From Oligoflexia bacterium (lineage in GTDB: Bacteria; Bdellovibrionota; Bacteriovoracia; Bacteriovoracales; Bacteriovoracaceae), in the NCBI GenBank assembly GCA_015231955.1, contig JADGAN010000001.1:310001-374000 (forward strand): 64,000 nucleotides of DNA, given 5' to 3'. Each line of letters opens with the position of its first letter. The stretch's first letter is position 1. Made by a program: the position numbers and the translations under genes. The notes beneath the pieces are model-generated. The model was not told where the DNA came from and did no database searches. It was given only the letters and a program-made list of their open reading frames with translations. Below are positions 43,035-63,945 of this stretch, one piece after another.

Positions 43035-44174
43035 TTATTCTCCATTATGCACATTAATTATGAGATCACAAAACTCTCGAACTGCTCCTTCTCCTCCCTT
43101 TCCGAGAGTAATATAAATGGCAACAGACTTGTTTGCAGAAGAAGCATTGGCAACAGTCACGGGGCATCCGACGATTTTTAAAGCAGACAGGTCATTTAGG
43201 TCATCGCCAATATATGCAAGTTGGTTTAATGTTATGTTTTCCATTTGTGCTAATTTTTTCACCACATCGGATTTTTCTTTTATTCCTTGATAGAGATGGT
43301 CTATTTTTAATTTGTTTGCTCGTCTGGCCACAATCTCAGTGTTTTCACTTGTCACAATAGCTGTTTTAATTCCAAGAGATCGTATCAGCTCTATGCCCTT
43401 TCCATCTCTTGTATTGAACTTCTTGATTTCATCACCATTTTCACTGTAATACATACTCCCATCTGTTAGGACACCATCGACATCAAGAATAAGCATTTTT
43501 ATATTCTTGATTTTTTCTCTTAAAGAAAGAGGAATGCACTCTGGATGGAAGCGCTTTAGTAGTAGTTGTTCTACAATGAAAAAATCAGTGTCATCGTCGA
43601 TCTCGTAACTAAGTTCTTTGCTCGAGATCATTCTTTCAATTTTCCCGCCAAACCAAAGTCCTTGCTCAACTAGTTCTTTCTTTAAAATATAGATATTTCC
43701 ATCGTCATAAAAAAATCCCTTAATTTGTTGGCGGGGGAGGTTGCAATGAGTTGCATACTCTTTTATTTTTGTATAATAACCACTTGCTAACGTATCACTC
43801 ATGGTGTTGTTGAATGAATGAATGGCCTCGTCAATCGTAGATGGATTACGAATGGGGGATGTTGGTTGTAAAACAACGACCGCAGTGATTTTTCCTTTTA
43901 AAGGATGATGTTCGACGATGTGCTTGAGCAATTCTATTGTCGTTGTGTCATCTTCTGCTAAGTCAGATGGACGCTGGAGTACCTTGGCCCCATATTGTTG
44001 AGCTATCTGAGCAATCTCATCATCCTCTGTAGAGACATAAAATTCATCCAGTAATTTTGAGTTCTTTGCGGCTTCAATTGTCCAATAGATGAGAGGAAAT
44101 CCTGCTATTGGTTTTATATTCTTCCTTGGAATTCCCTTGCTTCCACCTCTTGCTGGAATAATTCCGATAATCAT
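43035..44174 (-). CDS. CMP-ulosonate synthetase fused to KdsC-type HAD phosphatase
   Basis: A protein of 379 aa with two domains. Residues 1-205 are an acylneuraminate/KDO cytidylyltransferase (PARGGSKGIPRKN near 7, LQPTSPIRNPSTID near 102). Residues 225-375 are a HAD phosphatase of the KdsC type (LILDVDGVLTDG near 229, AIVTSENTE, YIGDDLNDL). The first domain activates a 2-keto-3-deoxy acid with CTP. The second would remove a phosphate, which fits a NeuB-like synthase producing a phosphorylated ulosonic acid. Animal CMAS has the same order, but bacterial fusions are less common. A GGAG precedes the ATG. Confidence 0.87.
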   Translation of the reverse strand: MIIGIIPARGGSKGIPRKNIKPIAGFPLIYWTIEAAKNSKLLDEFYVSTEDDEIAQIAQQYGAKVLQRPSDLAEDDTTTIELLKHIVEHHPLKGKITAVVVLQPTSPIRNPSTIDEAIHSFNNTMSDTLASGYYTKIKEYATHCNLPRQQIKGFFYDDGNIYILKKELVEQGLWFGGKIERMISSKELSYEIDDDTDFFIVEQLLLKRFHPECIPLSLREKIKNIKMLILDVDGVLTDGSMYYSENGDEIKKFNTRDGKGIELIRSLGIKTAIVTSENTEIVARRANKLKIDHLYQGIKEKSDVVKKLAQMENITLNQLAYIGDDLNDLSALKIVGCPVTVANASSANKSVAIYITLGKGGEGAVREFCDLIINVHNGE

Positions 44175-49641: not shown

Positions 49642-51432
49642 ATGTATATCGCAGGAATTCATTTTTTAAGAATCATTGGGGCCATGATTATATTTCTAGT
49701 GACATTAGTTTATGTGGAATTTTTTTTAGGGCCATTTTTTATTAATTATTATTGGCTAAAAGAAAAGATAAATAAAATTTCTTCTAGTGGAGAATCATTG
49801 CTATTTACTCAGGTTTTCTTTGACAATATGTTCTTCAAATTTAAATTTTTTTTAATTGCTGTGGTCGTACTGAGTGTGGTGATGCTACTTTTGAGAAGTA
49901 AAATTAAGCATTATTTTTCTCGCGTATACCGAGATTTTATAGATATAAATAATTTTTTTTATAGCATAATCAAAAAATCTATAGCTAAAGACAGCATGGC
50001 TTATCGCTGTACTTTTGGGATCGTACTTATTTTTTCATGCGCAATCAGGTTGTACTACTTAAATGCACCTCTTCGCTATGATGAAGCTTTTACTTATAAT
50101 AATTATGCAAGTAAGTCTCTTTTGATAGCTTTGTCCAATTATTCGGCCCCAAACAATCATCTTTTCCATACCTTGCTTGCGCACATTTCAACATCGCTAT
50201 TGGGTGATGGGGAGTGGGCCATAAGACTACCAGCATTTTTTGCTGGAATCTTACTCTTGATTTCTGTCTATACCTTTTTCCGAATGATTCATGGAAAGTA
50301 TTTGGCAGTAGTTACACTTGGGCTGATTGGACATAACTCCTATTTTATAGAATACTCAACAAGCGCTAGAGGCTATGTTTTTGTTGGACTTTTCTTTTTT
50401 TGCATAATGATTTTTGTTGAGCTGTTACGTAAACGGCAAAATGAATTTCTATGGTTTATGATTGCTGTTTTTGCGGCCCTTGGACTTTATGCAATTCCAA
50501 CGATGGTCTACTGTCTTGGGGTTGTGATTGCTTGGGCGATTATACCTTTGGCATTGGAAAGGCCACGAGATTGGAAAAAAATTACGCATTTTTCAGGAAA
50601 ATTAGCAACCTATTTGGTTTTAGGTGGAGTTATTACAATTGTTTTGTATGCACCAATTTTTGTAACAGGATTTGGAAGTTACTCATCAAAAATATTACTA
50701 GAAAAACTTCCCATAGACATTGTCATACGGGATTTACCCCAAGCAATCTCTGCTATCGGATTGTTGTGGACTAGGGCAATGCCTGATTGGGCGCGTCTAG
50801 TTTGCTCCATCTTAGTTGCACTTGGGGTATTCGTGGGCAATAAATCGTTAAAGAACAATTTCTTGCTTTTTTGCTCAATCCTTCTTCCATCCCTGGTTAT
50901 CATTTTAGTGCAAAGAAAAATTCCATTTACAAGGAATTGGTTTTTTTTGTTTCCAGTTTTTGCTGGATTCATCTCCATGGGGATCATGTTGTTTTTAGAA
51001 CGATTGAAAGAAAAAAAGGGGTATGATTTTTTCATCATTGCCGTTGTTCTAATGGTTTTTATTCCATGGATGATCTTCGAATGGAAGCAAAGAAGTATTC
51101 TATCATTATCTGAAGATAAAACGTTACTTGCTGCAAAGGAGGTCAGTCTTTATTTACGACCATTGCTCTCGTCCGAAGATAGAGTTATGGCAAAATGCCC
51201 TGCCGATGCACCACTGGAGTATTATTTTGGAAGGTATAATATCCCAAAGAAAGGGTTGATTGTTCCAAAAGCAACTCCTCGCAATATCTATTTAGTACAA
51301 AGAAAGGAACAATCTATAGAGGCGATATTTATTGCTAATCAGGAAAAAGGATTACTACCAGGAGAAAGTCTAAGAGCGATTTATGAAGCTAAGGATGCAA
51401 TTGTTTACAAGGTGGTGAACGAAAACCTATGA
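49642..51432 (+). CDS. GT39/ArnT-like polytopic membrane glycosyltransferase
   Basis: A protein of 596 aa with two N-terminal spans, then a GT-C-type core of about ten spans. The acidic motif RYDEAFTYNNYA near residue 150 and PNNHLFHTLLAH near 173 are standard for PMT_2-type enzymes. The C-terminal 130 residues are soluble and probably periplasmic. It may transfer a polyprenyl-phosphate-linked sugar to the glycan outside the membrane. AGAGGGAG precedes the ATG. Its 3' end overlaps the convergent YfhO-like gene by 44 bases. Confidence 0.78.
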   Translation: MYIAGIHFLRIIGAMIIFLVTLVYVEFFLGPFFINYYWLKEKINKISSSGESLLFTQVFFDNMFFKFKFFLIAVVVLSVVMLLLRSKIKHYFSRVYRDFIDINNFFYSIIKKSIAKDSMAYRCTFGIVLIFSCAIRLYYLNAPLRYDEAFTYNNYASKSLLIALSNYSAPNNHLFHTLLAHISTSLLGDGEWAIRLPAFFAGILLLISVYTFFRMIHGKYLAVVTLGLIGHNSYFIEYSTSARGYVFVGLFFFCIMIFVELLRKRQNEFLWFMIAVFAALGLYAIPTMVYCLGVVIAWAIIPLALERPRDWKKITHFSGKLATYLVLGGVITIVLYAPIFVTGFGSYSSKILLEKLPIDIVIRDLPQAISAIGLLWTRAMPDWARLVCSILVALGVFVGNKSLKNNFLLFCSILLPSLVIILVQRKIPFTRNWFFLFPVFAGFISMGIMLFLERLKEKKGYDFFIIAVVLMVFIPWMIFEWKQRSILSLSEDKTLLAAKEVSLYLRPLLSSEDRVMAKCPADAPLEYYFGRYNIPKKGLIVPKATPRNIYLVQRKEQSIEAIFIANQEKGLLPGESLRAIYEAKDAIVYKVVNENL

Positions 51433-53863
51433 GCAGCGAAAAATTAATGAAAAGAAAACCAAGAAATGATAGCAGGTATGACCAGTAAAATATTGGTTCT
51501 GCAAAGTTTAGCTCAATATTGTTTTTTCCACTATTCTCTAAAAAAACTGCCTGAAATGCATGATCGGCCTTGAATATTTTAGTTTTCACTCCATTAATAC
51601 TGGCATGCCAATTGGGGTGATAATTGTTAAGGATTAGCATAAAACCAGGTGATGGATTAGTGACCTCTAGTTTGATATAATCGGGATGATATGTCTTAAT
51701 GGCAATATCAGCGCTTGCGGATCTCTTCTCGGTAGTGATTGGTGGGAGGGGAGCTGTTTTTTCAAGGAAAACATATTGGCGAAGATCACTTTCTGTTGCC
51801 TGTGCGAGTGCTATAAAAAGATCTTTACCATCATTAAAAAGCTTAGAATTGGGAATAAACATAAATCGGGGGAAAGGTTTTTTTATTTCATAAATATAGA
51901 TTGGTTTGTCGTAAGGAGATGCAAGAGGGTGTAGAAACTTTTTCTTTTCTTGAGGGAGGAGTTTAATCTCATTGGATGAAATCTGTTTAATTTGCTCATA
52001 GGGATTAAGCGAGAAAATATAGCGAAGATTGAGTAGTTTTAAATGAGGAACAGAGAAAAATTGAGAGAGATCTTGGCGTGAATCAAGATCAATTCCTAAA
52101 TAGAGGTCGTACCAATATTCATCAAAGTGTTTGCGATGTTTCTTGTCTTTGAGTTGTGGTTCAATGGCCAGACCGAAGAGATCTTTATAGTATCGATTAA
52201 AAATGGGGCTCCTTGATTCGACAGATTCAAGTCCTTTGATCTGGAGTAAACAAGGGTAATCAAAATCAACGCTTCCTACTCGAAATGGAGAGGATTGAGT
52301 ATCAATGAGATTGGTAGAGTAGACCATATTGAGGTATTTTTCATACATAAGGCCTTCGTTTCCCAGACCAAAATATCTCATAAATCGAACTTGAATTACC
52401 AGAAGTAGAATCGCTAAGAGGGGAAGAAAGAGTTTGAACGGCTTGGCAGTGAATGCAGTTATGCGATATTTTCTGATAAAAAAGATTGAAAATATTATAA
52501 GGTACAAGGGGATATTGATGAAGAATTTATTTTTATTAACAGTGTTAAAATTCCATTCGTAGGCCAATATAATGAGTAGGAATACAAATCCTACTGAAAA
52601 GAGAAGATTGTTTTTTTTAGAGGGGATAGAAAAACGAATGCTAATAAAAAGATAAAAAGCATAAGCTGAAAAGCAATTTCCAATAGAAAAAGTATATCGG
52701 AGTTCATCGCTGTAAAACAATAAAGAGTAGATTAGCGTTGCGATGATAGATACAATGAATGATGGGAGAATGGATATAGGTCTTTTTTCAAGTTCATCAA
52801 TGTAACTTAGAATAAAGCAAAGGAATAGGAAGGGGGTTGTCCATACAAGATGAGCAAGATCCATTTTCTCAAGGAAGGATCCTTTTATAATAGGTGTCGA
52901 TAGAGTAAATAGTGTCGAAATAATAAAAGTTAAAATAATACAAATAAAAATCCAGCGAGAACGTTTGAAAGAATACAAAAAAGGAATGCCGAATGCCATC
53001 GGCGCTATAGTCAAAGTCCTACCTACGTAATCAAAAAAGGTAATTAAAAAAGTTGATGCAAAGTTGGTTAGATTAAATGCTTCAAAAAAAGCATAGCTTC
53101 GATGAGAAAAGGGGATAAATTGTATAAGGGACCAGAGGACAGGGAAGCAAAGAAGAGAAAATCCAAACCAGAAACCAATGTTACGTACGATGTAGTAGTT
53201 GACAAAAAGAGGTTTCCACCCTCGAAAGATGAGGAATAATGAAAATTGTAAAAAGATAAAATAAGGGAGAGTTAATATAGGAGAGGAAATAAATAGAAAA
53301 AAATTTATGAAAATAATTTTTAGTATCCAAAAACGGTCATGTAATCTTTTATCCTTCAGCATGAGTTGATCAAGAAAAACAAAAGTAAGAGGAAAAGCGT
53401 AGTAAATTGTAATATGCATGATTGAGTGTGGATGAATTTGTGAGGTGAGAGCGTAGAAAATTCCTGCGAATAGAGAGGGAATGGGTGAGAAATTACAAAA
53501 TTTTTTAAAAAAGAGGAAAGTGCCCAATCCAGCAATAAACATGTAGAAAATGATAAAGAAGTTGTAGATCAGCCATGTGGGAAATATAGTGCATAGAAGT
53601 GTTGCTAGATAGCTGACGGAAAAGTGTGAGGTTTGTGATGGGATTCCTCCTGGAAAGTGAGGGAACCATTGGAATAGGCCAAATTGTTTGAGCAAATCGG
53701 CATGGATAGCAAAGCGATAGAAATCAGCATCAAAAGTGTCGTGAACCATTACAGTGGCCCAAGGGCCAAGGATAATTTTGTCAATATAGAAAATGGTGGA
53801 AAAAAGAAGAAAGAAAAAGAAGGTAGATTTGAGGTTAAGTTTGTATGTTGTCAATAAATGCAT
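51389..53863 (-). CDS. YfhO-like large polytopic membrane protein
   Basis: A protein of 824 aa from the ATG at 53863, with GAGG four bases upstream; a start at 53944 would overlap the upstream gene. About 13 spans are followed by a soluble region of 300 residues. Near the C-terminus comes the typical NNYHPNWHASINGVKTKIF block of the YfhO group, where a tryptophan-rich G/N-W-x-A-x-I/V-D/N-G motif precedes the last span. YfhO proteins take part in adding sugars to cell-envelope polymers. Early residues VMVHDTFDADFYRFA may correspond to a GT-C acidic motif. The exact role here is unknown. Confidence 0.72.
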   Translation of the reverse strand: MHLLTTYKLNLKSTFFFFLLFSTIFYIDKIILGPWATVMVHDTFDADFYRFAIHADLLKQFGLFQWFPHFPGGIPSQTSHFSVSYLATLLCTIFPTWLIYNFFIIFYMFIAGLGTFLFFKKFCNFSPIPSLFAGIFYALTSQIHPHSIMHITIYYAFPLTFVFLDQLMLKDKRLHDRFWILKIIFINFFLFISSPILTLPYFIFLQFSLFLIFRGWKPLFVNYYIVRNIGFWFGFSLLCFPVLWSLIQFIPFSHRSYAFFEAFNLTNFASTFLITFFDYVGRTLTIAPMAFGIPFLYSFKRSRWIFICIILTFIISTLFTLSTPIIKGSFLEKMDLAHLVWTTPFLFLCFILSYIDELEKRPISILPSFIVSIIATLIYSLLFYSDELRYTFSIGNCFSAYAFYLFISIRFSIPSKKNNLLFSVGFVFLLIILAYEWNFNTVNKNKFFINIPLYLIIFSIFFIRKYRITAFTAKPFKLFLPLLAILLLVIQVRFMRYFGLGNEGLMYEKYLNMVYSTNLIDTQSSPFRVGSVDFDYPCLLQIKGLESVESRSPIFNRYYKDLFGLAIEPQLKDKKHRKHFDEYWYDLYLGIDLDSRQDLSQFFSVPHLKLLNLRYIFSLNPYEQIKQISSNEIKLLPQEKKKFLHPLASPYDKPIYIYEIKKPFPRFMFIPNSKLFNDGKDLFIALAQATESDLRQYVFLEKTAPLPPITTEKRSASADIAIKTYHPDYIKLEVTNPSPGFMLILNNYHPNWHASINGVKTKIFKADHAFQAVFLENSGKNNIELNFAEPIFYWSYLLSFLGFLFINFSLLIGFRSPPCKQLHP

Positions 53864-53903: not shown

Positions 53904-54998
53904 TTAGAATCGAGAGAGCATTTTTCCTTTACGAATTTTTTCAATTAAATCGCGTGAAACAACTTTAATACCTGTTGCATTCCAGTGGTTGTCATCTTTA
54001 TGAAAGACAGCAGAGGATTGTTTTGTGGACTCTTCAAAAATTTTTTGTGTATCAATCGTTGTGACGCCCATACTGTTTAATTCAGTGATCAATTTGCGCA
54101 AAAATTGAGGTTGAGTGGGGATGCCTAGTTTTGCAAAAAGGATGTTTTCTTTAATAGGGATTGGTAAAAAGATAAATTCAATGCCGAGTGAATTAAGAGA
54201 TTCTTTGTATTTTTTCAGAGTGAGAGCAATATCGTGAACATAGTTAATATCCACTGTTTCGATCCTTTCTAAAATAGACTTGCCATCAAAGAATAACTCA
54301 TCGTTCACGTGAGGATACATTGGACGGGTTCCTGTTAGTTCTCTGGAGCGAGATTTTATATAGTTCAGCATATTCGATTTATGAAATCGATCAAGTAATA
54401 GATAGTATTGAAGGAGAAGATTATTATTTATTAATGGAAGATCAATATATTGATTATTTTGTGGTGGACGTAGGTTTAAAAAATCTTTCAAGGAAGTAAT
54501 GTATCGCTCATTTCGAGCAAGAATGACTAATTTAGGTGGATTATCGTGAAATCTTTTTAGACTGAGAAATTTATTTTTTAGCTCATCAGAACTGGGAGCC
54601 AAAGGGTAGACAGAGGCATGAAGTTCATTTTCGAGAACTACTGACAGAAGATTTTCTTGATCTGTTTTTTCTGCATAGATATCCGATTCTCCGACAATTA
54701 CAATATCATAGTGATTGAGATCGCGATCTTTTGTTCTGTAACCATAACGATCTGTAATCCAAGTTACAGTTTCTTTAACAGCAAAAGGAGTGCGGTATCC
54801 TAGAGCTCCTTCAACAGATCGAGTAATAATCCTATTTGGGTAGTATGGGCCAGGTAGTTTATCGGACATCTTGATAACGTAAAGGGTCTCTAGTTGGCGA
54901 TAGTGAAAAAAATCCTCAGGAAGAATAAAAAGGTCTAGGCCAATAAAGAGGATAAAAGGAGAAAGAAATAGAAGTGTTTTGAGAATTAATTTTTTCAT
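53904..54998 (-). CDS. AlgJ/AlgX-like SGNH-type acyltransferase partner protein
   Basis: A protein of 364 aa with one N-terminal hydrophobic segment (residues 5-27), so it is a membrane-anchored periplasmic protein. A Ser-containing block near residue 100 (DIVIVGESDIYAE) and a late DDNHWNATGIKVVS block with D-x-x-H-W match the alginate O-acetyltransferase AlgJ/AlgX pattern. It follows the MBOAT gene, as AlgJ follows AlgI. It probably transfers the acyl group delivered by the MBOAT protein onto the glycan. The acyl group need not be acetyl, because an ACP module precedes it. Confidence 0.8.
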   Translation of the reverse strand: MKKLILKTLLFLSPFILFIGLDLFILPEDFFHYRQLETLYVIKMSDKLPGPYYPNRIITRSVEGALGYRTPFAVKETVTWITDRYGYRTKDRDLNHYDIVIVGESDIYAEKTDQENLLSVVLENELHASVYPLAPSSDELKNKFLSLKRFHDNPPKLVILARNERYITSLKDFLNLRPPQNNQYIDLPLINNNLLLQYYLLLDRFHKSNMLNYIKSRSRELTGTRPMYPHVNDELFFDGKSILERIETVDINYVHDIALTLKKYKESLNSLGIEFIFLPIPIKENILFAKLGIPTQPQFLRKLITELNSMGVTTIDTQKIFEESTKQSSAVFHKDDNHWNATGIKVVSRDLIEKIRKGKMLSRF

Positions 54999-55009
54999 GT
55001 TGTGTCAGT

Positions 55010-56449
55010 TTAAAATTGGAAGTAAATAAATTGTTGTTTGCCAAACTTACCAAGGAAAATAATAGCAAGAACGACTGTGTAATAGAGAGACCATCGCACG
55101 AAGAGTGGAGAATTGGAAATCTTTGAACGAATACTTCCCTGTCGCTCTTGAAGCAGGTGGGTTGCTTCCACGAGCAAAAGCAAAAAAAGTACAATCAAGA
55201 AGGGCATCATTCGCTTTTCCTCAAGGAAAAGGGCGTCTCTTATAAAATCAAAATCGAACAGATTGGACCATCCCAAGGTGATTCTAGACAAGATGGTTTT
55301 TGCATCAGCAATAGAATTGGCCCTGAAAAAAATAAGAGAGAAGCTAAAAATCGAAAAGGTATAGAACATTGATATGGCATTAAAGACCCACTCCTGCCTC
55401 TTCGGGAATAAAGGGTAAATGTATTTTTTTCTAAATTTTTTTGTTAAGATTTCAGCAGAGATTGCAAGACCTTGAATCAGTCCAAAAACAATGAAGGTCC
55501 AATTGGCGCCGTGCCAAAGACCAATGAGTAAATTGGTGAAGAGCACAGAAAAGAGAAGTCCTGCTCGACCATAATCTCTGGTCGCAATGGTGAGTGGTTT
55601 AAAGACGTAGTCTTGAAGCCATGAAGAGAGTGAGATATGCCATCTTCGCCAAAAGTCGGAGATTGATGTTGCATAAAAAGGTCTTTGAAAATTGTTGATC
55701 AATTGAATCCCAAACATCTGTGCTGAGCCAATGGCCATATCGGAGTAGGCCGAAAAATCGCAGTAGACTTGAAAGGTAAAAAAGATCGCAACCATGATAA
55801 TGGATAGGCCTTGGTACGACTCTGGTGAAGCATAGACAGTATCAACATAGATTTTCAGACGATCTGCTATTACAAGTTTTTTAAAAAGTCCCCATAAGAA
55901 GAGTTGGGCCCCATAGACCACTTGTGAGTAGTTAAAGTTGATCTTGGCAGTGAGCTGAGGAATGAGTTGATTGGATCTTCCGATGGGCCCGGCCAAGAGC
56001 TGTGGAAAAAAGGAGACATAAAGGGCATAAATGCCTAAATTTTTCTCCGGCATTCGATCCCCTCGGTAAACGTCGATGAGGTATCCTACCGATTGAAAGA
56101 TATAAAAAGAGATCCCAATAGGAAGAATGAGATTTAAGGCCGGAAAGGAGGTTAGAGTAGAAATGGAAAAATTGAGATATTTAAAAGTGAAGAGCACACC
56201 CAAATTGAAAAAGAGTGCAAGTAGTAGAATTAGCTTTTTAGCAGAAGAGTATTTTTCAAATAAGAGAGCGGAAAGATATCCTGTCAAAGTAATGCCGACT
56301 AGAAACCAAAGGTAGTGAAAGTTCCAACATAGATAATAGAAGTAGCTTGCTGCCAGCAAAAGGATCCAGCGGCGCTGGTAGGGGAGGAGGTAGTAACAGA
56401 AAAAGATACAGGGAAGAAAAAGAAGGTATTCGATGGAATTAAATAACAT
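55010..56449 (-). CDS. MBOAT family acyltransferase (AlgI/DltB-like), module 1
   Basis: A protein of 479 aa from the ATG at 56449, with GGAGG five bases upstream. About ten spans. The MBOAT signature includes FFPQLLAGPIGRSNQLIPQL, DFSAYSDMAIGSAQMFGI, DFWRRWHISLSSWLQDY and the catalytic-His loop IGLWHGANWTF near residue 305. It should move an acyl group across the membrane to the periplasmic SGNH protein encoded next. The start overlaps the end of the SDR gene by 11 bases, so it is coupled with the acyl-synthesis genes upstream. Confidence 0.9.
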   Translation of the reverse strand: MLFNSIEYLLFLPCIFFCYYLLPYQRRWILLLAASYFYYLCWNFHYLWFLVGITLTGYLSALLFEKYSSAKKLILLLALFFNLGVLFTFKYLNFSISTLTSFPALNLILPIGISFYIFQSVGYLIDVYRGDRMPEKNLGIYALYVSFFPQLLAGPIGRSNQLIPQLTAKINFNYSQVVYGAQLFLWGLFKKLVIADRLKIYVDTVYASPESYQGLSIIMVAIFFTFQVYCDFSAYSDMAIGSAQMFGIQLINNFQRPFYATSISDFWRRWHISLSSWLQDYVFKPLTIATRDYGRAGLLFSVLFTNLLIGLWHGANWTFIVFGLIQGLAISAEILTKKFRKKYIYPLFPKRQEWVFNAISMFYTFSIFSFSLIFFRANSIADAKTILSRITLGWSNLFDFDFIRDALFLEEKRMMPFLIVLFLLLLVEATHLLQERQGSIRSKISNSPLFVRWSLYYTVVLAIIFLGKFGKQQFIYFQF

Positions 56450-57161
56450 GAGCGCCTCCATTCATGACCAGGTTGATCCCGTTAATATAAGGAGAGCAGT
56501 GGAGAAGAAAGTGAACACTCTCTGCCACCTCTGTTGGAGTAAGCAGTTTTTTAAAGGGTGCTTGCTCGATCATCTCTGACACCATCCTCTCGTCGATTAG
56601 AGAGCTCATGTTCGTTTGCATAAAAGAGGGGGAGATGCAATTTGCTGTAATATTAAACTTTGAATTTTCACTGGCCCAAGATTTGGAGAGGGATTCAATA
56701 TAGGCCTTATTAGCAGTATATTCGGACCACCCTAGAGGTGGTTTGTTGATTAGAGCGGAAGAGAGAATTGAGATGATTCGCCCCTGTTTTTTTTTTCGAA
56801 AAAGAGAGAGTGCTGCCTGTGTAATATTGATGACAGGGAGAATATTGTGCTTAAAGCTCAACTCAAAGGTAGCAAGATCTTCTTTGTGGAAATATTGAAT
56901 TTGTGGGCGAAGGTAAGCATTGTTGATTAGGACATCAAGATTCATATCATTCATTTGCTCTAAAAGATGATGGACTGATGCTTTATCATGGAAGTTACAA
57001 GCGTGCTTGACTGTATTGGAAAAGCGATGCTCTAGGTAGGTTGCTTTGTCGAGAGAAGAGTAAAAAGTAAAGTGGATTTTACTATGGGGGTTGTTCTGGG
57101 CAAGATGATCCGTGATGGCGCCACCAAGTCCTGATGCCCCACCAGTGATTAAGATGTTCAT
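56439..57161 (-). CDS. Short-chain dehydrogenase/reductase, FabG-like
   Basis: A protein of 240 aa. NAD(P) motif ILITGGASGLGGAI (residues 3-16), then DVLINNAYL. The active site is SILSSALINKPPLGWSEYTANKAY, giving the Ser, Tyr and Lys of the SDR triad. NCISPSFMQT follows. In this operon it probably reduces a keto group of an ACP-bound acyl chain. Alternatively it may act on a sugar. It lies directly after the MaoC-like gene (stop and start are adjacent) and before the MBOAT gene. Confidence 0.85.
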   Translation of the reverse strand: MNILITGGASGLGGAITDHLAQNNPHSKIHFTFYSSLDKATYLEHRFSNTVKHACNFHDKASVHHLLEQMNDMNLDVLINNAYLRPQIQYFHKEDLATFELSFKHNILPVINITQAALSLFRKKKQGRIISILSSALINKPPLGWSEYTANKAYIESLSKSWASENSKFNITANCISPSFMQTNMSSLIDERMVSEMIEQAPFKKLLTPTEVAESVHFLLHCSPYINGINLVMNGGAHVI

Positions 57162-57554
57162 TTAAATTATCCCCACTTGAATAGTTCCTTTGGCCACTAG
57201 ATGCTCTTTTTTATAAAAGCTATACTTGATTTCGATAAGATTGACTGAAGAGAAAATGTCCACAATCTCTGCTTTGAAGAGGATTGAGTCGTTTAGGTAT
57301 ATTGGTTTATTATACTTAATTGATTGAGAAAGTAATATCACATTTTTTATGGGTAAACACTCTCCAACAAAGTAAGAGATAAGGCCATTAAGAATATTTC
57401 CATGCATGACTTTATCTGAAAATCCTTTACTTTTGGCATGGGTACTGTCGGTATGAAGAGGGTTGTAATCTTTAAATATTTGTAGAAAACCATTATAGAT
57501 TTCCTCAGATATAACCAGGGGAATTTCAAATTTTTGACCTTTTTCCATATGCAA
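57162..57554 (-). CDS. MaoC-like (R)-specific hydratase/dehydratase
   Basis: A protein of 130 aa with a hot-dog fold. The hydratase motif is DYNPLHTD (residues 32-39) followed by AKSKGFSDKVMHGNILNGL, containing the Asp and His of MaoC/PhaJ-type enzymes. It would hydrate an enoyl thioester or dehydrate a hydroxyacyl thioester attached to CoA or the nearby ACP. Together with the FabG-like SDR this gives a minimal set for making a short 3-hydroxyacyl group. A second ATG is two codons downstream (57548). Confidence 0.83.
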   Translation of the reverse strand: MHMEKGQKFEIPLVISEEIYNGFLQIFKDYNPLHTDSTHAKSKGFSDKVMHGNILNGLISYFVGECLPIKNVILLSQSIKYNKPIYLNDSILFKAEIVDIFSSVNLIEIKYSFYKKEHLVAKGTIQVGII

Positions 57555-57571
57555 TAGTAAAAAAGTTAAGA

Positions 57572-57811
57572 TTAAACTTTGGTCAGAAGGTTATCGCACA
57601 TCTCACCGACATTTTTAAAACCTTGGATTTCACCAGAGGAGAAGCGTATTTTAAAATGTTTTTCGATGGCCACCACAAGTTGAATATGGCTTAGAGAATC
57701 CCACTCCTCAATATCTTTGGCAGTTGTTTCTCGGGCCAAAACGATATTATCATTATCGAGAATATTAATAAAAATAGAATTAACACTTTTGATCATTTCT
57801 TCAAAGGTCAT
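57572..57811 (-). CDS. Acyl carrier protein, module 1
   Basis: A protein of 79 aa. The phosphopantetheine site is EEWDSLSHIQLVVAIEK, with Ser about 39 in a D-S-L motif. Size and acidic composition are usual for ACPs. GGGAG lies upstream of the ATG. It lies between the FkbH-like and MaoC-like genes, so it most likely carries the acyl or glyceryl group loaded by the FkbH-like protein. It must be converted to the holo form by a phosphopantetheinyl transferase, and none is seen in this window. Confidence 0.88.
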   Translation of the reverse strand: MTFEEMIKSVNSIFINILDNDNIVLARETTAKDIEEWDSLSHIQLVVAIEKHFKIRFSSGEIQGFKNVGEMCDNLLTKV

Positions 57812-57824
57812 TACTTTCTCCCAT

Positions 57825-59561
57825 CTAATTTTTAAAAATAAAAGTAGTTTTTTCTTGATAGTCAGAGATGTTTAATATCCAGTGACTACCATATTGGATC
57901 ATCCCGAGATTTTTGTAAAGGTCTTGGACGAGAGCATTTTTTTTAGTTGGCAAATATTCACCAAGAATTGTTGAGTATCCATTTTGTTTTGCCAAAGTGA
58001 CGATTTGATTTAGGATAAATTGTTCCATGCCTCTTTTAAGAACTCTACAGCTCATAACCCAAGTATCAATGAAGAGGGCCTTCGCTTGCTTTTTTTCTTC
58101 AACTTCTTTTAAGATAATAGAGCTTATGAGACCATGATCACCAAATTTATCTTTTAGTGTAAAAGAGAGAGTATGGTGTATTTTTGAGCTAGCAATTTGT
58201 TTAATTTCATCTTCGGTATAACGAATTGTGCGAAGGTTGAATTGGTTGGATCGTTGAGTAAGTTGTGCAATTCTAGGAATATTGTAGGTGCTAAATGTAC
58301 CGACATCGGAGCTCATTTCAAGGTTTCGAAGGAAATCGTCTTCATTAATAAAAGTTTTTTCAAAAATAACTCGGTTTGCCTCTTCCTTGTATTGTTGAGT
58401 TCGAATGGAATCGTTTTCAGAGTAGGAAGCTGTTTCAAAAAGGTTGAGTGAACTGAGGTAAGGGAGATACTCTGCTGGATCAACAGGAAGATCGGGAACG
58501 GTGACTGCCGGAAGGTGAATTTTAACCATCTCACGTTCAACAGGATTATCATCTATAAAAACCATGGAGTCTAGGCCGATATTGAGTGTGGATTGGATAA
58601 ACTGGATGTTTTGCGCCTTGTTGTGCCAGTTGGCAACAAAAAGTGCTATATCCTCGAGGCGTAAAATCATTTCAGGATGATTTTCAAAAGGTGCTTTGGC
58701 AATGTTTTCTTCATTTTTGCTACAGACAGCAAGGATTACTCCTCTTTGCTTTAACTCCTTGGTCCACATTTGAATTTCAGTAAAAATTTTACCTATCCCC
58801 AGTTGTCCGATTTGAATATTTTCAATCCCATCATCTCCGATAACACCTCCCCAGAGAGTGTTATCCAAATCCAAAATAAGACATTTGTTAAAACGTCCAA
58901 TAATGGAAAAGATAATATCCAAAAGATGCTTGGAGACAATTGGCAAAAAATCCAAACTAAAAAGGAGTTCTGTCGTTGCAAAAATTTTAGGATCAGTGAT
59001 AAAGGATTGGCCATAAGATGATAACAATGAGGCAAGATCTAGAATGAAGAGGTCGCTACACTTTTGACCAAGATCCATAAGTCCTAGATTAATTTTTCGG
59101 ACTTGATAGCGAAAGGAGATATTGGTTTTATTGGCAAAGTGTCCAAAAAGGTTATCATCTAACTCTTGAAAATTAAAATAGATGATTTTTGAGGAGCTGT
59201 TATAACATTTTATGCTTTCGTAGTAGGCACAAACTTTATTGAGGTGGTTGGTAGCAAAATCGATGCGTTGCTTGTCTTCGGGAAGTTTATAATAGTTTTT
59301 TTTAATTTTTGGGGTGGATTGAAAAATAATGATAAAATCAAAAACTTTTTGATAAAGTTCAGAAGACCTATTTAAGACAAGTGTATCCACTTGATCATAG
59401 TCCGCTTCAAAGATCTCTAAGTTCACTTCATACTCGTATCCTAGCCCTCTTAGTGCGGTGTGAAGCAGCTGGGTAGAGCTATCGCCAAGGAGCGCGATAG
59501 AGATTTTTTTATGACTTGAAAAATCTTTTTTAAGATTTTTCTTAAGGGAAGAAAAATTCAT
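57825..59561 (-). CDS. FkbH-like HAD subfamily IIIC protein with SGNH and GNAT-like regions
   Basis: A protein of 578 aa. N-terminal region with SIALLGDSSTQLLHTAL (SGNH-like, residues 21-37). The HAD core begins at LILDLDNTLWGGVIGDDG (DLDNT about 231-235), followed by VCSKNEE and FIDDNPVEREMV. The C-terminal third (DKFGDHGLIS, then DTWVMSCRVLKRGMEQFIL) is GNAT-like. FkbH proteins load glyceryl from 1,3-bisphosphoglycerate onto an ACP. Relatives in glycan loci work with ACPs in the same way. Next to ACP, MaoC and SDR genes it is the likely priming enzyme of module 1. The acyl group is not known. Confidence 0.85.
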   Translation of the reverse strand: MNFSSLKKNLKKDFSSHKKISIALLGDSSTQLLHTALRGLGYEYEVNLEIFEADYDQVDTLVLNRSSELYQKVFDFIIIFQSTPKIKKNYYKLPEDKQRIDFATNHLNKVCAYYESIKCYNSSSKIIYFNFQELDDNLFGHFANKTNISFRYQVRKINLGLMDLGQKCSDLFILDLASLLSSYGQSFITDPKIFATTELLFSLDFLPIVSKHLLDIIFSIIGRFNKCLILDLDNTLWGGVIGDDGIENIQIGQLGIGKIFTEIQMWTKELKQRGVILAVCSKNEENIAKAPFENHPEMILRLEDIALFVANWHNKAQNIQFIQSTLNIGLDSMVFIDDNPVEREMVKIHLPAVTVPDLPVDPAEYLPYLSSLNLFETASYSENDSIRTQQYKEEANRVIFEKTFINEDDFLRNLEMSSDVGTFSTYNIPRIAQLTQRSNQFNLRTIRYTEDEIKQIASSKIHHTLSFTLKDKFGDHGLISSIILKEVEEKKQAKALFIDTWVMSCRVLKRGMEQFILNQIVTLAKQNGYSTILGEYLPTKKNALVQDLYKNLGMIQYGSHWILNISDYQEKTTFIFKN

Positions 59562-60595
59562 TATTCTCCTCCAAGAGAGTGTTTATTTATAAGATTGTGC
59601 TCTAAGATGAAGTTTTTAATTTTGGCAGCAACAATCTCATTTCCGTTGGGACTTAAGTGCATTCCATCAAGACACAGAGACTTATCTTTGACATCAACAG
59701 CAAGAGAGAGATCCAAATAAAAAACCCGATCGGAATACTGCTCTTTGATCATGGCCTCTACGAGCTCCTGCTTTATACGATTAGGACTACCAGGGTTGGA
59801 GATGTAGAGAACTATCTTGTGTCTTGCTATTAACCAATCAAAGGATCGTGAAAGATAAGATAGGTATTCTGCATAAGGTTTTTGATTAGCATCTTGAATC
59901 TTCCGCGCTTCTTTTTCATAGTGATTTACTTTGTCGGTAATTTGAGAAAAAAGGCCATGAACCTCATCAAGTGCCATGCCAACACGAAAGCGGACAGGGT
60001 TAGTTTTTTTTGCTTCTTGATCATCCATTTGGCCTAGATAGGCCTTATCCAAATTTTCAACACCATACTTTAGAATTTTTGTTTTCTCACTAAGATAGAG
60101 AGGAAGAATAGGCATATATCCAAAAGTTCTAAAAAAGAAATTTGCTCCTCGATAGTCTAAAAAATCGATTGCTTTTGGGTCGGGATCGGCATTGCTATTA
60201 TAAAGGATAGCGATATTGTAATTGAGATTTTCATAGTATTGGAGATCTTGGAAAACGCCATAGATGCCTTGGTTGTTCCAGCCTAAATTGGCAACAGAGA
60301 CAAATTTATCAATCATTTTAAATTGTTTTTCCAAGAGCGCGGGCCAAGATTCTGTTGGGCCTACAAAATATCCATAGACGGTACTGGCCCCAAAGCAAGC
60401 AACTCTCCACTCCTTTTGGTCTTTGGCGGAGAGAACTTTTCCCCGATATCCTTTATAGTTATAGCCGAGCTGTTTGGAGAGGTGTTGGTGCATGAAAAGA
60501 TCTGCTGCTAAAATAAGCAGAAGAATAAGTGCAAAAGAGGAGAGAAAGAATAGAGTGTAAAAGAATAAATATTTTTTGCTAAGCAATTTAATCAT
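59561..60595 (-). CDS. SGNH hydrolase-type acyltransferase partner, module 2
   Basis: A protein of 344 aa with an N-terminal membrane anchor (residues 10-31). SGNH blocks are ACFGASTVYGYFV (Ser in G-x-S), VANLGWNNQG and a late LCLDGMHLSPNGNEIVA with Asp and His. It occupies the position of DltD or AlgJ relative to the MBOAT gene just upstream. The catalytic side is probably periplasmic, where it would transfer the acyl group to the glycan. The stop overlaps the FkbH-like start by one base. Confidence 0.82.
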   Translation of the reverse strand: MIKLLSKKYLFFYTLFFLSSFALILLLILAADLFMHQHLSKQLGYNYKGYRGKVLSAKDQKEWRVACFGASTVYGYFVGPTESWPALLEKQFKMIDKFVSVANLGWNNQGIYGVFQDLQYYENLNYNIAILYNSNADPDPKAIDFLDYRGANFFFRTFGYMPILPLYLSEKTKILKYGVENLDKAYLGQMDDQEAKKTNPVRFRVGMALDEVHGLFSQITDKVNHYEKEARKIQDANQKPYAEYLSYLSRSFDWLIARHKIVLYISNPGSPNRIKQELVEAMIKEQYSDRVFYLDLSLAVDVKDKSLCLDGMHLSPNGNEIVAAKIKNFILEHNLINKHSLGGE

Positions 60596-60607
60596 GTTCG
60601 CCTCATC

Positions 60608-62011
60608 CTAGAATTCAAAATAGATAAATTTTTTTTCACCATGGACACTAAAAAAAAGAATGACAAAGAGAAGCAGAGAATAGAGGCACCAACTAAGAAG
60701 AAAAGGTACCCTTCTTAATTGTAGAGCAAACTTCTCTTTTTCTGTAACCGCTTCAAAAATAAAGAGAGTGATTAAAGAGACGATCATAACGATAGCGTCA
60801 TAGGAGTCTTGTTTAAAGAGAAACTGTTCTTTAGAATATGAAGTATTGTTGTAACAGAAAAGATTTTGAAGAACTGCCAAAGAGGTATAAATATTTTCTG
60901 CTCGAAAAAAAATCCAAGTGAGTGTGATCAATAGAAAAGTAATAATGATATTGAATCCACTTAAGAAAGGACTCTTTTTCAACCCAAGCTTTTGTACCAA
61001 GATGCTTCGAGGCCTTGCAGTGATGCCTGCTAAAATAATATAGGATCCATGCAAGCATCCCCAGATTACAAAATTGAAGGTTGTTCCGTGCCAGAGGCCA
61101 CAAACCAAGAATGTTATAAAGATGGCAAAGTGGACAGAAAAAGTTTTCTGTTTGCGAAGAGAAAAGGAGATTGGTTTGTAAAGATAATCCATTAACCACC
61201 GCGAAAGAGAGATATGCCAACGTCGCCAAAAATCTGCCACAGAGACAGCAAAATAGGGAGATCGAAAGTTATCGGTTAACTTGACTCCAAATAAGCGAGC
61301 TACCCCGAGAGCAGCATCGGTGTATCCAGAAAAATCAAAGTAGATTTGAAACGAATAGAGGCATAAGGGAATTAGGGCCAGCGGCCCCATATACTCCACG
61401 TGGTGATCATAGAATTCATCTACAAAAGGGGTGATCCTATCGGCAACCACAAATTTCTTAAAAGCACCTAGAAGAATAAAAAAGAGAGCATATTTCAAAT
61501 TTTCAAAGCAGTTTTTCCAGTTGATTTGTGAGGTGCTTTTGAGTTGCGGGAGAAGGTCATGAGCGCGTTCAATTGGTCCCTGCAGAACTTTAGGAAAAAA
61601 AGCTAGATAAAGAGCGTAGTGACCAAAATGATCTTCTGGTTCCGCAAGTTCAGTCGAGATGTCGATTAAATAGGCGATTGCTTGAAAGGTGAAGAAGGAA
61701 ACTCCAATAATACCCCAATGGAGATTAGGAACAAAGTGAGGTGCGTATTTAAGTATGAGCAGAGGTAGAAGATTAATAGCGATTCCCACTACGATAAAAT
61801 ATTTTTGTGCTGGTTTAGTTTGGTGGCGTTTAATAGCATGGCCCAAAAAATAGGTTGCAACGATAATCAGCATCAGGGTGATCAAGAGAGGTGTCCCCGC
61901 CATTGACCAATAAAAGCCAAAACTAACAGCAAGCAAGAAAAACCAATTCCACTGAGGGAAGGTGTAGAAGCAAACGAATAAAAGAATCAGTGAGATGATA
62001 GAGATGAACAT
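60608..62011 (-). CDS. MBOAT family acyltransferase (DltB/AlgI-like), module 2
   Basis: A protein of 467 aa with about ten spans. MBOAT motifs are FFPKVLQGPIERAHDLLPQL, DFSGYTDAALGVARLFG, FWRRWHISLSRWLMDYLYKP and the catalytic-His loop VCGLWHGTTFNF near residue 317. It is a second, clearly different MBOAT in the same operon. With ACP and ligase genes directly upstream it matches the DltA/B/C/D logic, in which an activated acid on a carrier protein is passed through the membrane. The substrate is unknown. Confidence 0.9.
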   Translation of the reverse strand: MFISIISLILLFVCFYTFPQWNWFFLLAVSFGFYWSMAGTPLLITLMLIIVATYFLGHAIKRHQTKPAQKYFIVVGIAINLLPLLILKYAPHFVPNLHWGIIGVSFFTFQAIAYLIDISTELAEPEDHFGHYALYLAFFPKVLQGPIERAHDLLPQLKSTSQINWKNCFENLKYALFFILLGAFKKFVVADRITPFVDEFYDHHVEYMGPLALIPLCLYSFQIYFDFSGYTDAALGVARLFGVKLTDNFRSPYFAVSVADFWRRWHISLSRWLMDYLYKPISFSLRKQKTFSVHFAIFITFLVCGLWHGTTFNFVIWGCLHGSYIILAGITARPRSILVQKLGLKKSPFLSGFNIIITFLLITLTWIFFRAENIYTSLAVLQNLFCYNNTSYSKEQFLFKQDSYDAIVMIVSLITLFIFEAVTEKEKFALQLRRVPFLLSWCLYSLLLFVILFFSVHGEKKFIYFEF

Positions 62012-62034
62012 TAATTCACTATTTTGTTTGAATA

Positions 62035-62274
62035 TTAATGAGATTGTAACTTGTGTTCAATATCTCGAATGAGGTCGGAGATATTTCTTTGTCGCATTAA
62101 CTCTTTTTGTGAGAATTGTATTTTAAAAGAGTTTTCAACCGTAAGAATCAGATTAATATGAGACATGGAATCCCAGCCATCGATATTGGCCGAGGTCATA
62201 TTTCCTGAGATTACGATAGAATCGTCATTAAAGACTTTACAGAATATTTGGTTCAATTCTGATTGAACATTCAT
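62035..62274 (-). CDS. Acyl carrier protein, module 2
   Basis: A protein of 79 aa. The carrier-protein site is GWDSMSHINLILTVENSFKI, with Ser about 36. GGGGGG lies upstream of the ATG. It is only distantly similar to the ACP at 57572, so the two modules probably have separate carriers. It lies between the AMP-ligase and the MBOAT, which is the expected position for a DltC-like carrier. Confidence 0.87.
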   Translation of the reverse strand: MNVQSELNQIFCKVFNDDSIVISGNMTSANIDGWDSMSHINLILTVENSFKIQFSQKELMRQRNISDLIRDIEHKLQSH

Positions 62275-62307
62275 AAAGAATCCCCCCTAGATTATAAATG
62301 TAACCAA

Positions 62308-63945
62308 TTATGAACCCATTAAGGTTGATGTGTCACCAACATCTTCATTGATATATTGTTTTTTTAATATTCTCCTCATAATTTTGCCACTATTATTTTT
62401 GGGGATATCATCAATAAAGTAAACTTCTTGGGGTGTGGCGGTAGAGGAAACACGATTGGAGACGTGCAAGCGAATTTGTAATTCTACTTCTTTTGAAGGT
62501 TGATATCCTGATTTTAGAGAGACAAATGCCACCACCTTTTCATAGAGAAGTGGATCTGAAACACCAATGACTGCCGATTCTGATACTGCACTATGTTCAA
62601 GAAGAGCGCTCTCAACTTCAAAGGGACTAACCAGATGTCCGGCCGTATTAATAATATCATCGGCCCTTCCTAAAAACCAAAGATATCCATCTTCATCTTG
62701 GTAAGCGCGATCTCCAGAGAAATAGTAACTATGAATAAATTTCTTTTGATAGATATCAGGATAATGGAGGTAGGTTGAAAAGAGAGAGGAAAAAGGAGCT
62801 ACTAAACAGAGATTGCCTTCACTTTTTGGAGGAAGAGGAACTCCATCATCGGAAATGATGACAGGAAAAATTTCATTGCAACTACTCTTTCCCATCGATC
62901 CTGCTTTGATCGGCAACCCTGGACGATTGGCAATCATAATTGCTCCGGTCTCGGTTTGAAACCAGGTGTCGTAGATATCTTTTCCAAGCACCTCTTTTCC
63001 CCAAGAGATTATCTCTGGGTTCAATGGCTCACCCACACTGGAGATGTGACGAAGGTGATGAAGCTCGTAATTTGTAAAAAGTGCTTCATCCTCTTTCATA
63101 AGCATACGTAAAGCCGTAGGGGCCGTATACCAAACATTCACTTGTTCACTCTCTAGAATGTTGAACCATACTTCAGGAGTGTAGGCACCAGCGTATTGAA
63201 TTTGAGTCGTTCCATTGCTCCATGGGCCAATGATTCCATAGCTGACTCCTGTTACCCAGCCTTGATCTGCAGTACACCAGTAGATATCGTTTTCTTGAAC
63301 AGAAAGAACTTCTCTAAACGTTTTTTTTTGCAAAGCAAGTGAGCGATGGTGATGGAGCACTCCTTTTGGTTTCCCCGTGGAGCCAGAGGTATAATGAAGA
63401 ACAGAGGGTGCCTCTGGAGAAGTCGGAGGCACTATAAACATTGTTGAAGCTTGGGCCAGAAGTTTTTTATAACTTAAAATAGTTGCATCTATATGCTCAT
63501 CGATATCAATCAAAAGAATATGCTTTAAATTGGGATAGAGTTCTTTGCTAAAATTAATTTTTTTTAGGAAATTTTTTTTTGTGATAATACAAGTGGCATT
63601 GGAGTCAATGATTCGTTCCGAGATAGCACTCTCTCCAAGAGAGGAGAAGAGGATGCCAGTAATCGCCTTATGCTTTAAGCTTCCAAGGAAGCTAAAAAAA
63701 AGCTCAGGTGTTTTAGGAAGAAGAATTAGCACCGTTTCCCCCTCTACGATGGAAAGGGTTGTTGAAAGAAAGTTGGCAATTTTATTACTTTCTGTATCTA
63801 GATCAAGAAAAGTATAGTCGACAGACGTTTGATCCGGAAAGATGAATTTTAAGGCGACCTTGTCTGCATGGCCATTTAAGAGCTGTTGAGTCGTGCAAGC
63901 GTATCCGATATTAAAAAAGTTGGACGAGGAAGAAGTCGTTGTCAT
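62308..63945 (-). CDS. AMP-forming acyl/amino-acid ligase (DltA- or acyl-CoA-synthetase-like)
   Basis: A protein of 545 aa of the ANL superfamily. P-loop LHYTSGSTGKPKG near residue 184. Other motifs are DTWFQTETGAIM, GDRAYQDEDGYLWFLGRADDIIN and, at the end, the catalytic Lys block PKNNSGKIMRRIL near 523. It activates a carboxylic acid as the acyl-AMP and passes it to CoA or the adjacent ACP. WCTADQGWVTGVSYGI resembles acetyl-CoA-synthetase-type proteins, so a short-chain acid is likely. It is the first complete gene of module 2. Its ATG overlaps the stop of the upstream gene by four bases. Confidence 0.88.
   Translation of the reverse strand: MTTTSSSSNFFNIGYACTTQQLLNGHADKVALKFIFPDQTSVDYTFLDLDTESNKIANFLSTTLSIVEGETVLILLPKTPELFFSFLGSLKHKAITGILFSSLGESAISERIIDSNATCIITKKNFLKKINFSKELYPNLKHILLIDIDEHIDATILSYKKLLAQASTMFIVPPTSPEAPSVLHYTSGSTGKPKGVLHHHRSLALQKKTFREVLSVQENDIYWCTADQGWVTGVSYGIIGPWSNGTTQIQYAGAYTPEVWFNILESEQVNVWYTAPTALRMLMKEDEALFTNYELHHLRHISSVGEPLNPEIISWGKEVLGKDIYDTWFQTETGAIMIANRPGLPIKAGSMGKSSCNEIFPVIISDDGVPLPPKSEGNLCLVAPFSSLFSTYLHYPDIYQKKFIHSYYFSGDRAYQDEDGYLWFLGRADDIINTAGHLVSPFEVESALLEHSAVSESAVIGVSDPLLYEKVVAFVSLKSGYQPSKEVELQIRLHVSNRVSSTATPQEVYFIDDIPKNNSGKIMRRILKKQYINEDVGDTSTLMGS

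Follow-up and report, generated by a model that had tools for sequence, protein, structure and literature searches.

Gene content and layout of the locus

We analyzed a 64,000-nucleotide (nt) stretch of the genome of an Oligoflexia bacterium (assembly GCA_015231955.1, contig JADGAN010000001.1, positions 310,001 to 374,000), which we refer to as the window. In an RpoB tree, the genome groups with a Bdellovibrionales MAG and two genomes of its own phylum (support, 100/99), which makes Bdellovibrionota its probable phylum. On the minus strand of the window, running from position 59561 down to 53904, lie six contiguous genes, each named by curated models, that encode an FkbH-like protein, an acyl carrier protein (ACP), a MaoC-type dehydratase, a short-chain dehydrogenase/reductase (SDR), an MBOAT protein, and an SGNH protein (Table 1). 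From the evidence given below, we consider it fairly likely that this cassette encodes a carrier-fed envelope acylation unit that would take a glyceryl group from 1,3-bisphosphoglycerate and place it, likely as lactyl, on a surface glycan.

From FkbH to SGNH, the intergenic gaps are 13, 17, 0, −23, and 11 nt. The initial annotation had described these genes as contiguous and overlapping or nearly touching, and this is borne out. The genes are as it listed them, but the span that it took as the unit is only half of an operon. FkbH shares 1 nt with the preceding SGNH gene, the last member of a ligase/ACP/MBOAT/SGNH unit (63945 to 59561) that the annotation had missed. Between the ligase (63945) and a large membrane protein (ending at 51389), the largest gap is 40 nt, and several neighboring genes overlap. 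The six-gene span is the second half of one operon, and a twin unit is the first half; one twin is primed by a ligase and the other by FkbH, and both finish with an MBOAT and an SGNH protein. Translation of MaoC probably starts not at the listed TTG but at an ATG two codons further in.

Table 1. Genes of the operon and selected genes of related loci. Positions are in the window unless a locus (L number) is given; aa, amino acids.
Feature	Position	Strand	Basis or remark
FkbH-like glyceryltransferase/phosphatase, 578 aa, predicted primer	57825..59561	-	PF21211, TIGR01686
Acyl carrier protein, 79 aa, DSL motif, Ser39	57572..57811	-	PF00550 above cut-off
MaoC-type hot-dog dehydratase, 130 aa from listed TTG	57162..57554	-	PF01575, 37.1 (cut-off 27)
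Short-chain dehydrogenase/reductase, 240 aa, Y148xxxK152	56439..57161	-	PF13561, 102 (cut-off 27); PF00106
MBOAT, 483 aa, H317, C-terminal FIYFQF	55010..56461	-	PF03062, 93.9 (cut-off 27)
AlgX-type SGNH acyltransferase, 364 aa	53904..54998	-	PF16822, 49.7 (cut-off 26.5)
AMP-forming acyl ligase, acetyl-CoA synthetase type, twin-unit primer	62308..63945	-	PF00501, 214 bits
Twin-unit acyl carrier protein, 79 aa, DSM	62035..62274	-	Weak DltC/ACP NCBIfam matches; carrier Ser aligned
Twin-unit MBOAT, 467 aa, C-terminal FIYFEF	60608..62011	-	PF03062, 94.2
Twin-unit SGNH (GDSL) protein, 344 aa	59561..60595	-	PF00657, 29.5 (cut-off 23.6)
Large membrane protein, directly downstream of cassette	51389..53863	-	No Pfam match; 40 nt past SGNH gene
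MaoC-SDR fusion	L035:11760-13265		
MaoC-SDR fusion	L038:10733-12199		
MaoC-SDR fusion	L053:10360-11586		
MaoC-SDR fusion	L058:11316-12662		
MaoC-SDR fusion	L047:1980-3578		
MaoC-SDR fusion	L050:1-1725		
Glyoxalase_4 (VOC) gene beside FkbH	L070:5248-5691		
Glyoxalase_4 (VOC) gene beside FkbH	L073:5534-5950		
Glyoxalase_4 (VOC) gene beside FkbH	L077:4029-4430		
Glyoxalase_4 (VOC) gene beside FkbH	L087:11988-12398		

Conserved residues of FkbH and its carrier protein

The window FkbH scored 307 bits against TIGR01686 (cut-off, 147) and 206 bits against PF21211 (cut-off, 27), and it is 52 to 53% identical to PDB entry 3slr (BF1531) over 377 aligned residues. In an alignment limited to FkbH sequences of 450 to 900 aa, the HAD residues D231, D233, T235, S281, and K282 were present in 60 of 60 sequences, and D337 and D338 in 59 of 60. 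Cys505 of the C-terminal domain was also kept in all 60; the role that we give this residue below is presumed from the FkbH family. The carrier Ser39 of the ACP aligned with, and was conserved in, 50 of 50 ACPs. Known FkbH-like enzymes charge a carrier with glyceryl taken from 1,3-bisphosphoglycerate (PMC7489565 and PMC8949500). An fkbH-domain gene, cj1302, lies in the Campylobacter flagellar glycan locus (PMC7099621), and so a place for FkbH in glycan biology has precedent.

Association of FkbH with MBOAT in other genomes

A genome scan with a single sequence found no relatives. A profile made from the window FkbH plus 3slr gave 40 clade loci, mostly from Bacteroidota and one from Bdellovibrionales. 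Within 6 kb of FkbH, these had an ACP in 33 cases, an MBOAT in 27, a MaoC and an SDR in 14 each, a VOC-family protein in 10, and a methyltransferase in 3. An ACP was also present at 24 of the 27 loci with an MBOAT, and the full set of ACP, MaoC, SDR, and MBOAT was found at 11 of the 40. When the 9 clade loci with a cut FkbH or with less than 5 kb downstream were set aside, the remaining 31 had ACP in 30, MBOAT in 23, and MaoC and SDR in 13 each. The MBOAT frequency (27/40) compares with a chance background of about 2%, calculated for four MBOAT genes per 3.3 Mb, the highest per-genome number seen; this background is only rough, given the abundance of acyltransferases in polysaccharide loci. 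The association of FkbH with MBOAT is conserved.

Gene order recurs as well. FkbH-ACP-MaoC-SDR-MBOAT was found in L059, L062, L064, L065, L067, L072, and L094, and the order FkbH-MaoC-SDR-ACP-MBOAT in L066, L068, and L080. Among 20 other loci from the phylum of the window, 14 had an ACP, 7 an MBOAT, and 10 a MaoC (two further genomes of the phylum with FkbH matches, G250 and G362, stand outside these counts). The corresponding numbers for five plasmid loci were 5, 3, and 2. In both groups, MBOATs are thus also more frequent near FkbH than the rough 2% background.

When 395 Bacteroidota genomes were sampled evenly, 7 proved to have a close FkbH. One of these was known before, which left 6 new loci as an independent sample. 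An MBOAT stood beside the FkbH-ACP pair in 3 of these, including L157, which has the full FkbH-ACP-MaoC-SDR-MBOAT set. At L157 (5674-15304), two more MBOATs, one of them paired with an ACP, stand in a row with the FkbH cassette, an arrangement that echoes the tandem units of the window.

We also examined the surroundings of 29 MBOAT loci of the phylum other than our own. An ACP lay within 1.5 kb in 7 and FkbH in none; most MBOATs in this phylum are therefore not carrier-fed.

The MBOAT and SGNH export machinery

Among aligned MBOATs of 400 to 560 aa with scores of at least 200, the catalytic His (H317) and the Tyr of a C-terminal FXYXXF shuttle hexapeptide were both present in 33 of 33. PatA uses acetyl-coenzyme A (acetyl-CoA) to acetylate the Tyr within the FXYXXF peptide at its own C terminus, and PatB then takes the acetyl group (PMC12148441). 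The same paper describes non-Dlt MBOAT/SGNH pairs as having no carrier protein, and Dlt as having a carrier and a separate DltX. Since the window MBOATs end in FIYFQF and FIYFEF, a Dlt type of donor appears to be joined here to a Pat type of shuttle.

The cassette SGNH protein has an N-terminal hydrophobic stretch, a GES block, and a DxxH motif. When it was aligned with 17 cassette homologues, GxS was invariant (18/18), and the His was present in at least 90%. Only 2 of 10 SGNH candidates scored over a Pfam cut-off (DltD and AlgX), and because Pfam named so few we assessed the SGNH partners by alignment and a fold model. The model of the L063 SGNH-like protein had DltD (3bma) as its top Foldseek match (E = 9e-5; TM-score on the query, 0.38), with the caveat that its confidence was moderate (mean pLDDT, 75) and its TM-scores on the query were 0.3 to 0.4. 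Alignment and model support the assignment of the gene 3′ of the cassette MBOAT as SGNH-like. The predicted export of the acyl group via the MBOAT/SGNH pair is well supported.

The MaoC and SDR pair

The MaoC dyad D29/H34 was present in 21 of 21 aligned sequences. By family profile, the solved structures nearest to MaoC were 3-hydroxyacyl-thioester dehydratase 2 (3ir3, which we take to be a human protein) and an (R)-specific enoyl-CoA hydratase (1iq6). The SDR residues Y148 and K152 were found in 17 of 17 sequences, a set that takes in one L067 SDR from outside its cassette; Ser occupies the 13th position before this Tyr in 11 of the 17, and Ser or Thr the 14th position in all.

At the 40 clade loci, MaoC and SDR were always paired (14/14) and never found alone. 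Moreover, MaoC-SDR fusion proteins adjoin divergent FkbH genes at six loci (Table 1). In the fusions of L035, L047, L050, and L058, about 150 to 190 residues without a Pfam match separate the two domains; in two fusions (L038 and L058), our SDR profile overlooked the SDR portion, which Pfam does show. Because the two activities are fused beside a carrier-loading enzyme, and because they are gained and lost as a pair, they would most simply act sequentially on the group that FkbH loads.

Both enzymes could instead belong to type II fatty acid synthesis and make a longer 3-hydroxyacyl chain on the ACP, as the likeness of the SDR to FabG-type reductases and of MaoC to (R)-hydratases would allow. 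A route of this kind, with dedicated ketosynthases, is described for the Flavobacterium O-antigen (PMC6519341). FkbH, however, provides a three-carbon (C3) unit. No ketosynthase was found on contig C26 (409,610 bases), and only 2 of 65 FkbH loci had one nearby (L045 and L069, the latter resembling a polyketide synthase locus). On these ketosynthase results we rejected the longer chain, which we regard as very unlikely.

A proposed route from glycolysis to the glycan

Sequential action of MaoC and SDR on the FkbH-loaded group suggests the following route. FkbH would transfer glyceryl from 1,3-bisphosphoglycerate to Cys505, its HAD domain would strip the 3-phosphate, and the glyceryl group would pass to the ACP, as expected from the FkbH family. 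By standard dehydratase chemistry, MaoC would then eliminate water from the beta position of glyceryl-ACP, giving 2-hydroxyacryl-ACP, the enol of pyruvyl-ACP, which the SDR would reduce to lactyl-ACP by standard reductase chemistry. The MBOAT would carry the acyl group from the ACP through the membrane and onto the Tyr in the peptide at its own C terminus, as in PatA. Finally, the SGNH protein would move it from the Tyr into an ester on an extracytoplasmic glycan, presumably the product of the surrounding polysaccharide genes.

Much of this was foreseen in the initial annotation, which we uphold in part. It had made its proposal depend on a conserved co-occurrence of FkbH with MBOAT and on the phosphatase Asp residues of FkbH; the former is conserved, and the latter, D231 and D233, are present. 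Predicted delivery through the MBOAT/SGNH pair, which it also suggested, is well supported. Its choice of glyceryl, lactoyl, or 3-hydroxyacyl products can be narrowed to a C3 acyl group, most likely lactyl: lactyl is favored for cassettes that have MaoC and SDR, glyceryl for those that do not, and longer 3-hydroxyacyl groups are disfavored.

Several observations weigh against a lactyl group exported in this way. The top NCBIfam models of the SDR are 3-oxoacyl (beta-keto) ACP reductases, not alpha-keto reductases, all with scores below the cut-off. At four distant loci (L048, L051, L056, and L057), a MaoC lies near FkbH and no SDR was detected; in these, MaoC may have another role. The MBOATs of L044, L055, and L056, which fell outside the length and score limits given above, are shorter and lack the hexapeptide. 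The cited literature holds no precedent for the use of an ACP donor by an MBOAT with a fused shuttle. Lastly, no MBOAT was found within 6 kb at 13 of the 40 clade loci, 8 of which are among the 31 complete ones (in the other 5, FkbH is cut or a contig end is close by), nor at 3 of the 6 loci of the independent sample. These MBOAT-less loci imply that the FkbH-ACP pair also serves other acceptors.

The first two of these observations, an SDR whose top matches are not lactyl specific and the MaoC without an SDR, fit a delivered group that is glyceryl itself, with MaoC and SDR acting on a second ACP substrate or in a sugar step. So does the existence of bare FkbH-ACP-MBOAT-SGNH cassettes with the same core (L063, L071, L074, L086, L089, and L097). 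However, MaoC and SDR are invariably paired in the clade, where they either separate the FkbH, ACP, and MBOAT genes or adjoin them, they are fused elsewhere, and the catalytic residues of both are intact, which makes glyceryl delivery by the window cassette rather doubtful. The MBOAT-less loci bear on another possibility, namely that MBOAT and SGNH merely adjoin FkbH and that what the ACP carries goes to a nucleotide sugar in the cytoplasm; two FkbH-ACP loci of this kind have a hexapeptide or WcbI-type transferase (L084 and L035). We think this improbable, given that in most cassettes the genes are directly adjacent, overlapping or separated by short gaps, and that an ACP is not usual beside MBOATs in the phylum (7 of the 29 loci above).

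Exchange of tailoring genes

Lactyl delivery through MBOAT and SGNH would be one version of a more variable system. Among the cassettes, the core of FkbH, ACP, MBOAT, and SGNH is constant, and the genes in the middle vary. On a quick tree (SH-aLRT support only) built from 36 FkbH sequences, namely that of the window and those of the 35 loci with an FkbH of at least 500 aa, the MaoC+SDR label changes nine times, and at least six of these changes are forced by starred branches. Cassettes that have neither MaoC nor SDR would deliver glyceryl, and the six bare ones just listed have no tailoring gene at all. At four loci, a Glyoxalase_4 (VOC) gene lies beside FkbH (Table 1). This family includes methylmalonyl-CoA epimerase, and by analogy the VOC protein is a possible C2 epimerase of glyceryl-ACP, so that the other C2 epimer might be delivered. 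Three cassettes (L070, L076, and L095) have a methyltransferase and would deliver O-methylglyceryl; O-methylation of FkbH-loaded glycerate is described for suomilide/varlaxin (PMC10143770).

FkbH, an ACP, and a methyltransferase together, as in these three cassettes, are also what a hydroxymalonyl- or methoxymalonyl-type unit would call for, as in the FK520 or tetronate pathways. Such an extender unit is not needed for transfer by MBOAT and SGNH. The tetromadurin pathway includes genes for acyl-CoA dehydrogenase, 3-hydroxyacyl-CoA dehydrogenase, and FabH (PMC7489565); none of these was found among the window operon genes scanned by Pfam, and the FabH-type genes of this genome sit on other contigs. 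The absence of these partners from the scanned genes led us to reject a methoxymalonyl or tetronate pathway, to which we attach only a very slight probability.

We tentatively suggest, as a possibility a little short of even, that all these cassettes belong to a modular C3 acyl system. One glycolytic intermediate on an FkbH-loaded carrier would be subject to exchangeable tailoring (none, MaoC plus SDR, a methyltransferase, or a VOC-family epimerase), and glyceryl, lactyl, O-methylglyceryl, or epimeric glyceryl would reach surface glycans via a common carrier-fed, self-shuttling MBOAT-SGNH exporter, with neither a ligase nor CoA. With the tailoring genes being swapped, gene content could serve to predict which acyl group a glycan bears.

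Comparison with known systems

The cassette appears to be a variant of Dlt/Pat-type envelope acylation. With Dlt (DltA, DltC, DltB, DltX, and DltD) it shares a carrier protein that feeds an MBOAT and a finishing SGNH protein, but its primer is FkbH, using an acyl phosphate from glycolysis, whereas that of Dlt is an adenylating DltA-type ligase; only the twin unit has the Dlt-like feature of a ligase as primer. The shuttle hexapeptide is fused to the cassette MBOAT, whereas in Dlt it is the separate DltX. There is no room for a DltX between the ligase and position 51389, where gaps are at most 40 nt (the rest of the genome was not searched for DltX). Against the DltB equivalog TIGR04091 (LTA_dltB), the cassette MBOAT scored 153.6 bits and the twin-unit MBOAT 193.1 bits (cut-off, 375). 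For these reasons, a classical Dlt system was rejected. The cassette resembles the PatA/PatB and AlgI/AlgJ/AlgX types in the MBOAT His, the C-terminal FXYXXF Tyr, and the membrane-anchored SGNH partner; those systems are described as using an acyl-CoA donor and no carrier (PMC12148441), whereas the cassette encodes a dedicated ACP.

As in the cassette, an FkbH-like protein and an ACP make glyceryl-ACP in the Mad7/Mad8, Mad14/Mad12, AerB, and vioprolide systems (PMC7489565, PMC8949500, and PMC10143770). The tetronate, methoxymalonyl, and glycerate-peptide pathways send the acyl group into polyketides or peptides; in the cassette, it would go to an MBOAT/SGNH exporter. The loading module of BryA in bryostatin synthesis reportedly has FkbH, dehydratase, ketoreductase, and ACP parts and is said to make a D-lactyl starter from 1,3-bisphosphoglycerate. 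The same set is encoded by separate genes in the cassette, with envelope acylation as the predicted outcome, whereas in BryA the parts are domains of a megasynthase.

In the open-access literature searched (subscription journals and preprints lay outside the search), FkbH together with MBOAT was found only for cyanobacterial aeruginosin-type peptides. Nothing was found there on FkbH with O-antigen, on FkbH with lactyl, dehydratase, and ketoreductase, on the gellan glyceryl acyltransferase of Sphingomonas, or on a lactate starter unit of bryostatin.

If our interpretation is correct, FkbH/ACP, known from natural products, and MBOAT/SGNH, known from the envelope, are joined in one widespread hydroxyacyl route to surface polymers, in which decoration is funded by a glycolytic acyl phosphate instead of ATP and CoA. 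A carrier combined with a fused shuttle would break the two-class view of MBOAT-SGNH systems, in which a carrier goes with DltX and CoA with a fused shuttle peptide. The cassettes would also be a candidate enzyme set for unexplained glyceryl or lactyl esters on polysaccharides. The close FkbH relative BF1531 of Bacteroides fragilis (3slr), whose structure is listed as uncharacterized, could now be assigned. In a B. fragilis strain, an FkbH-ACP pair (L075:9992-11978) stands beside an FrhB-type protein and a MatE transporter, with no MBOAT within 6 kb.

The upstream unit and the wider glycan locus

The ligase-ACP-MBOAT-SGNH genes (59561-63945, minus strand) have a Dlt-like layout, yet their ligase is of the acetyl-CoA synthetase type and their MBOAT is self-shuttling. 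The ligase scored 634 against NF003313 (cut-off, 729) and so is not called an equivalog. The upstream unit appears to work in parallel with the cassette, on a second acyl group. Directly downstream of the cassette, the large membrane protein is probably tied to the envelope glycan; its start is more likely the ATG at 53863 than the listed TTG at 53944.

The operon head lies past the window end (L006:4942-7732) and comprises two additional SGNH genes along with one sugar nucleotidyltransferase-like gene, the latter named from its sequence only. Farther on (L006:15119-17717), a third MBOAT and, after it, a further SGNH gene lie on the opposite strand, with no adjoining ACP; the L006 locus is rich in acyl-transfer genes. 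Within the window, at 43035-44174 on the minus strand, a single protein combines CTP_transf_3 (CMP-sugar cytidylyltransferase) with a HAD phosphatase and adjoins an iron alcohol dehydrogenase and a DegT aminotransferase. This CMP-sugar synthetase/HAD fusion, the aminotransferase, and a PMT-type protein nearby indicate that the surroundings are an envelope glycan locus.

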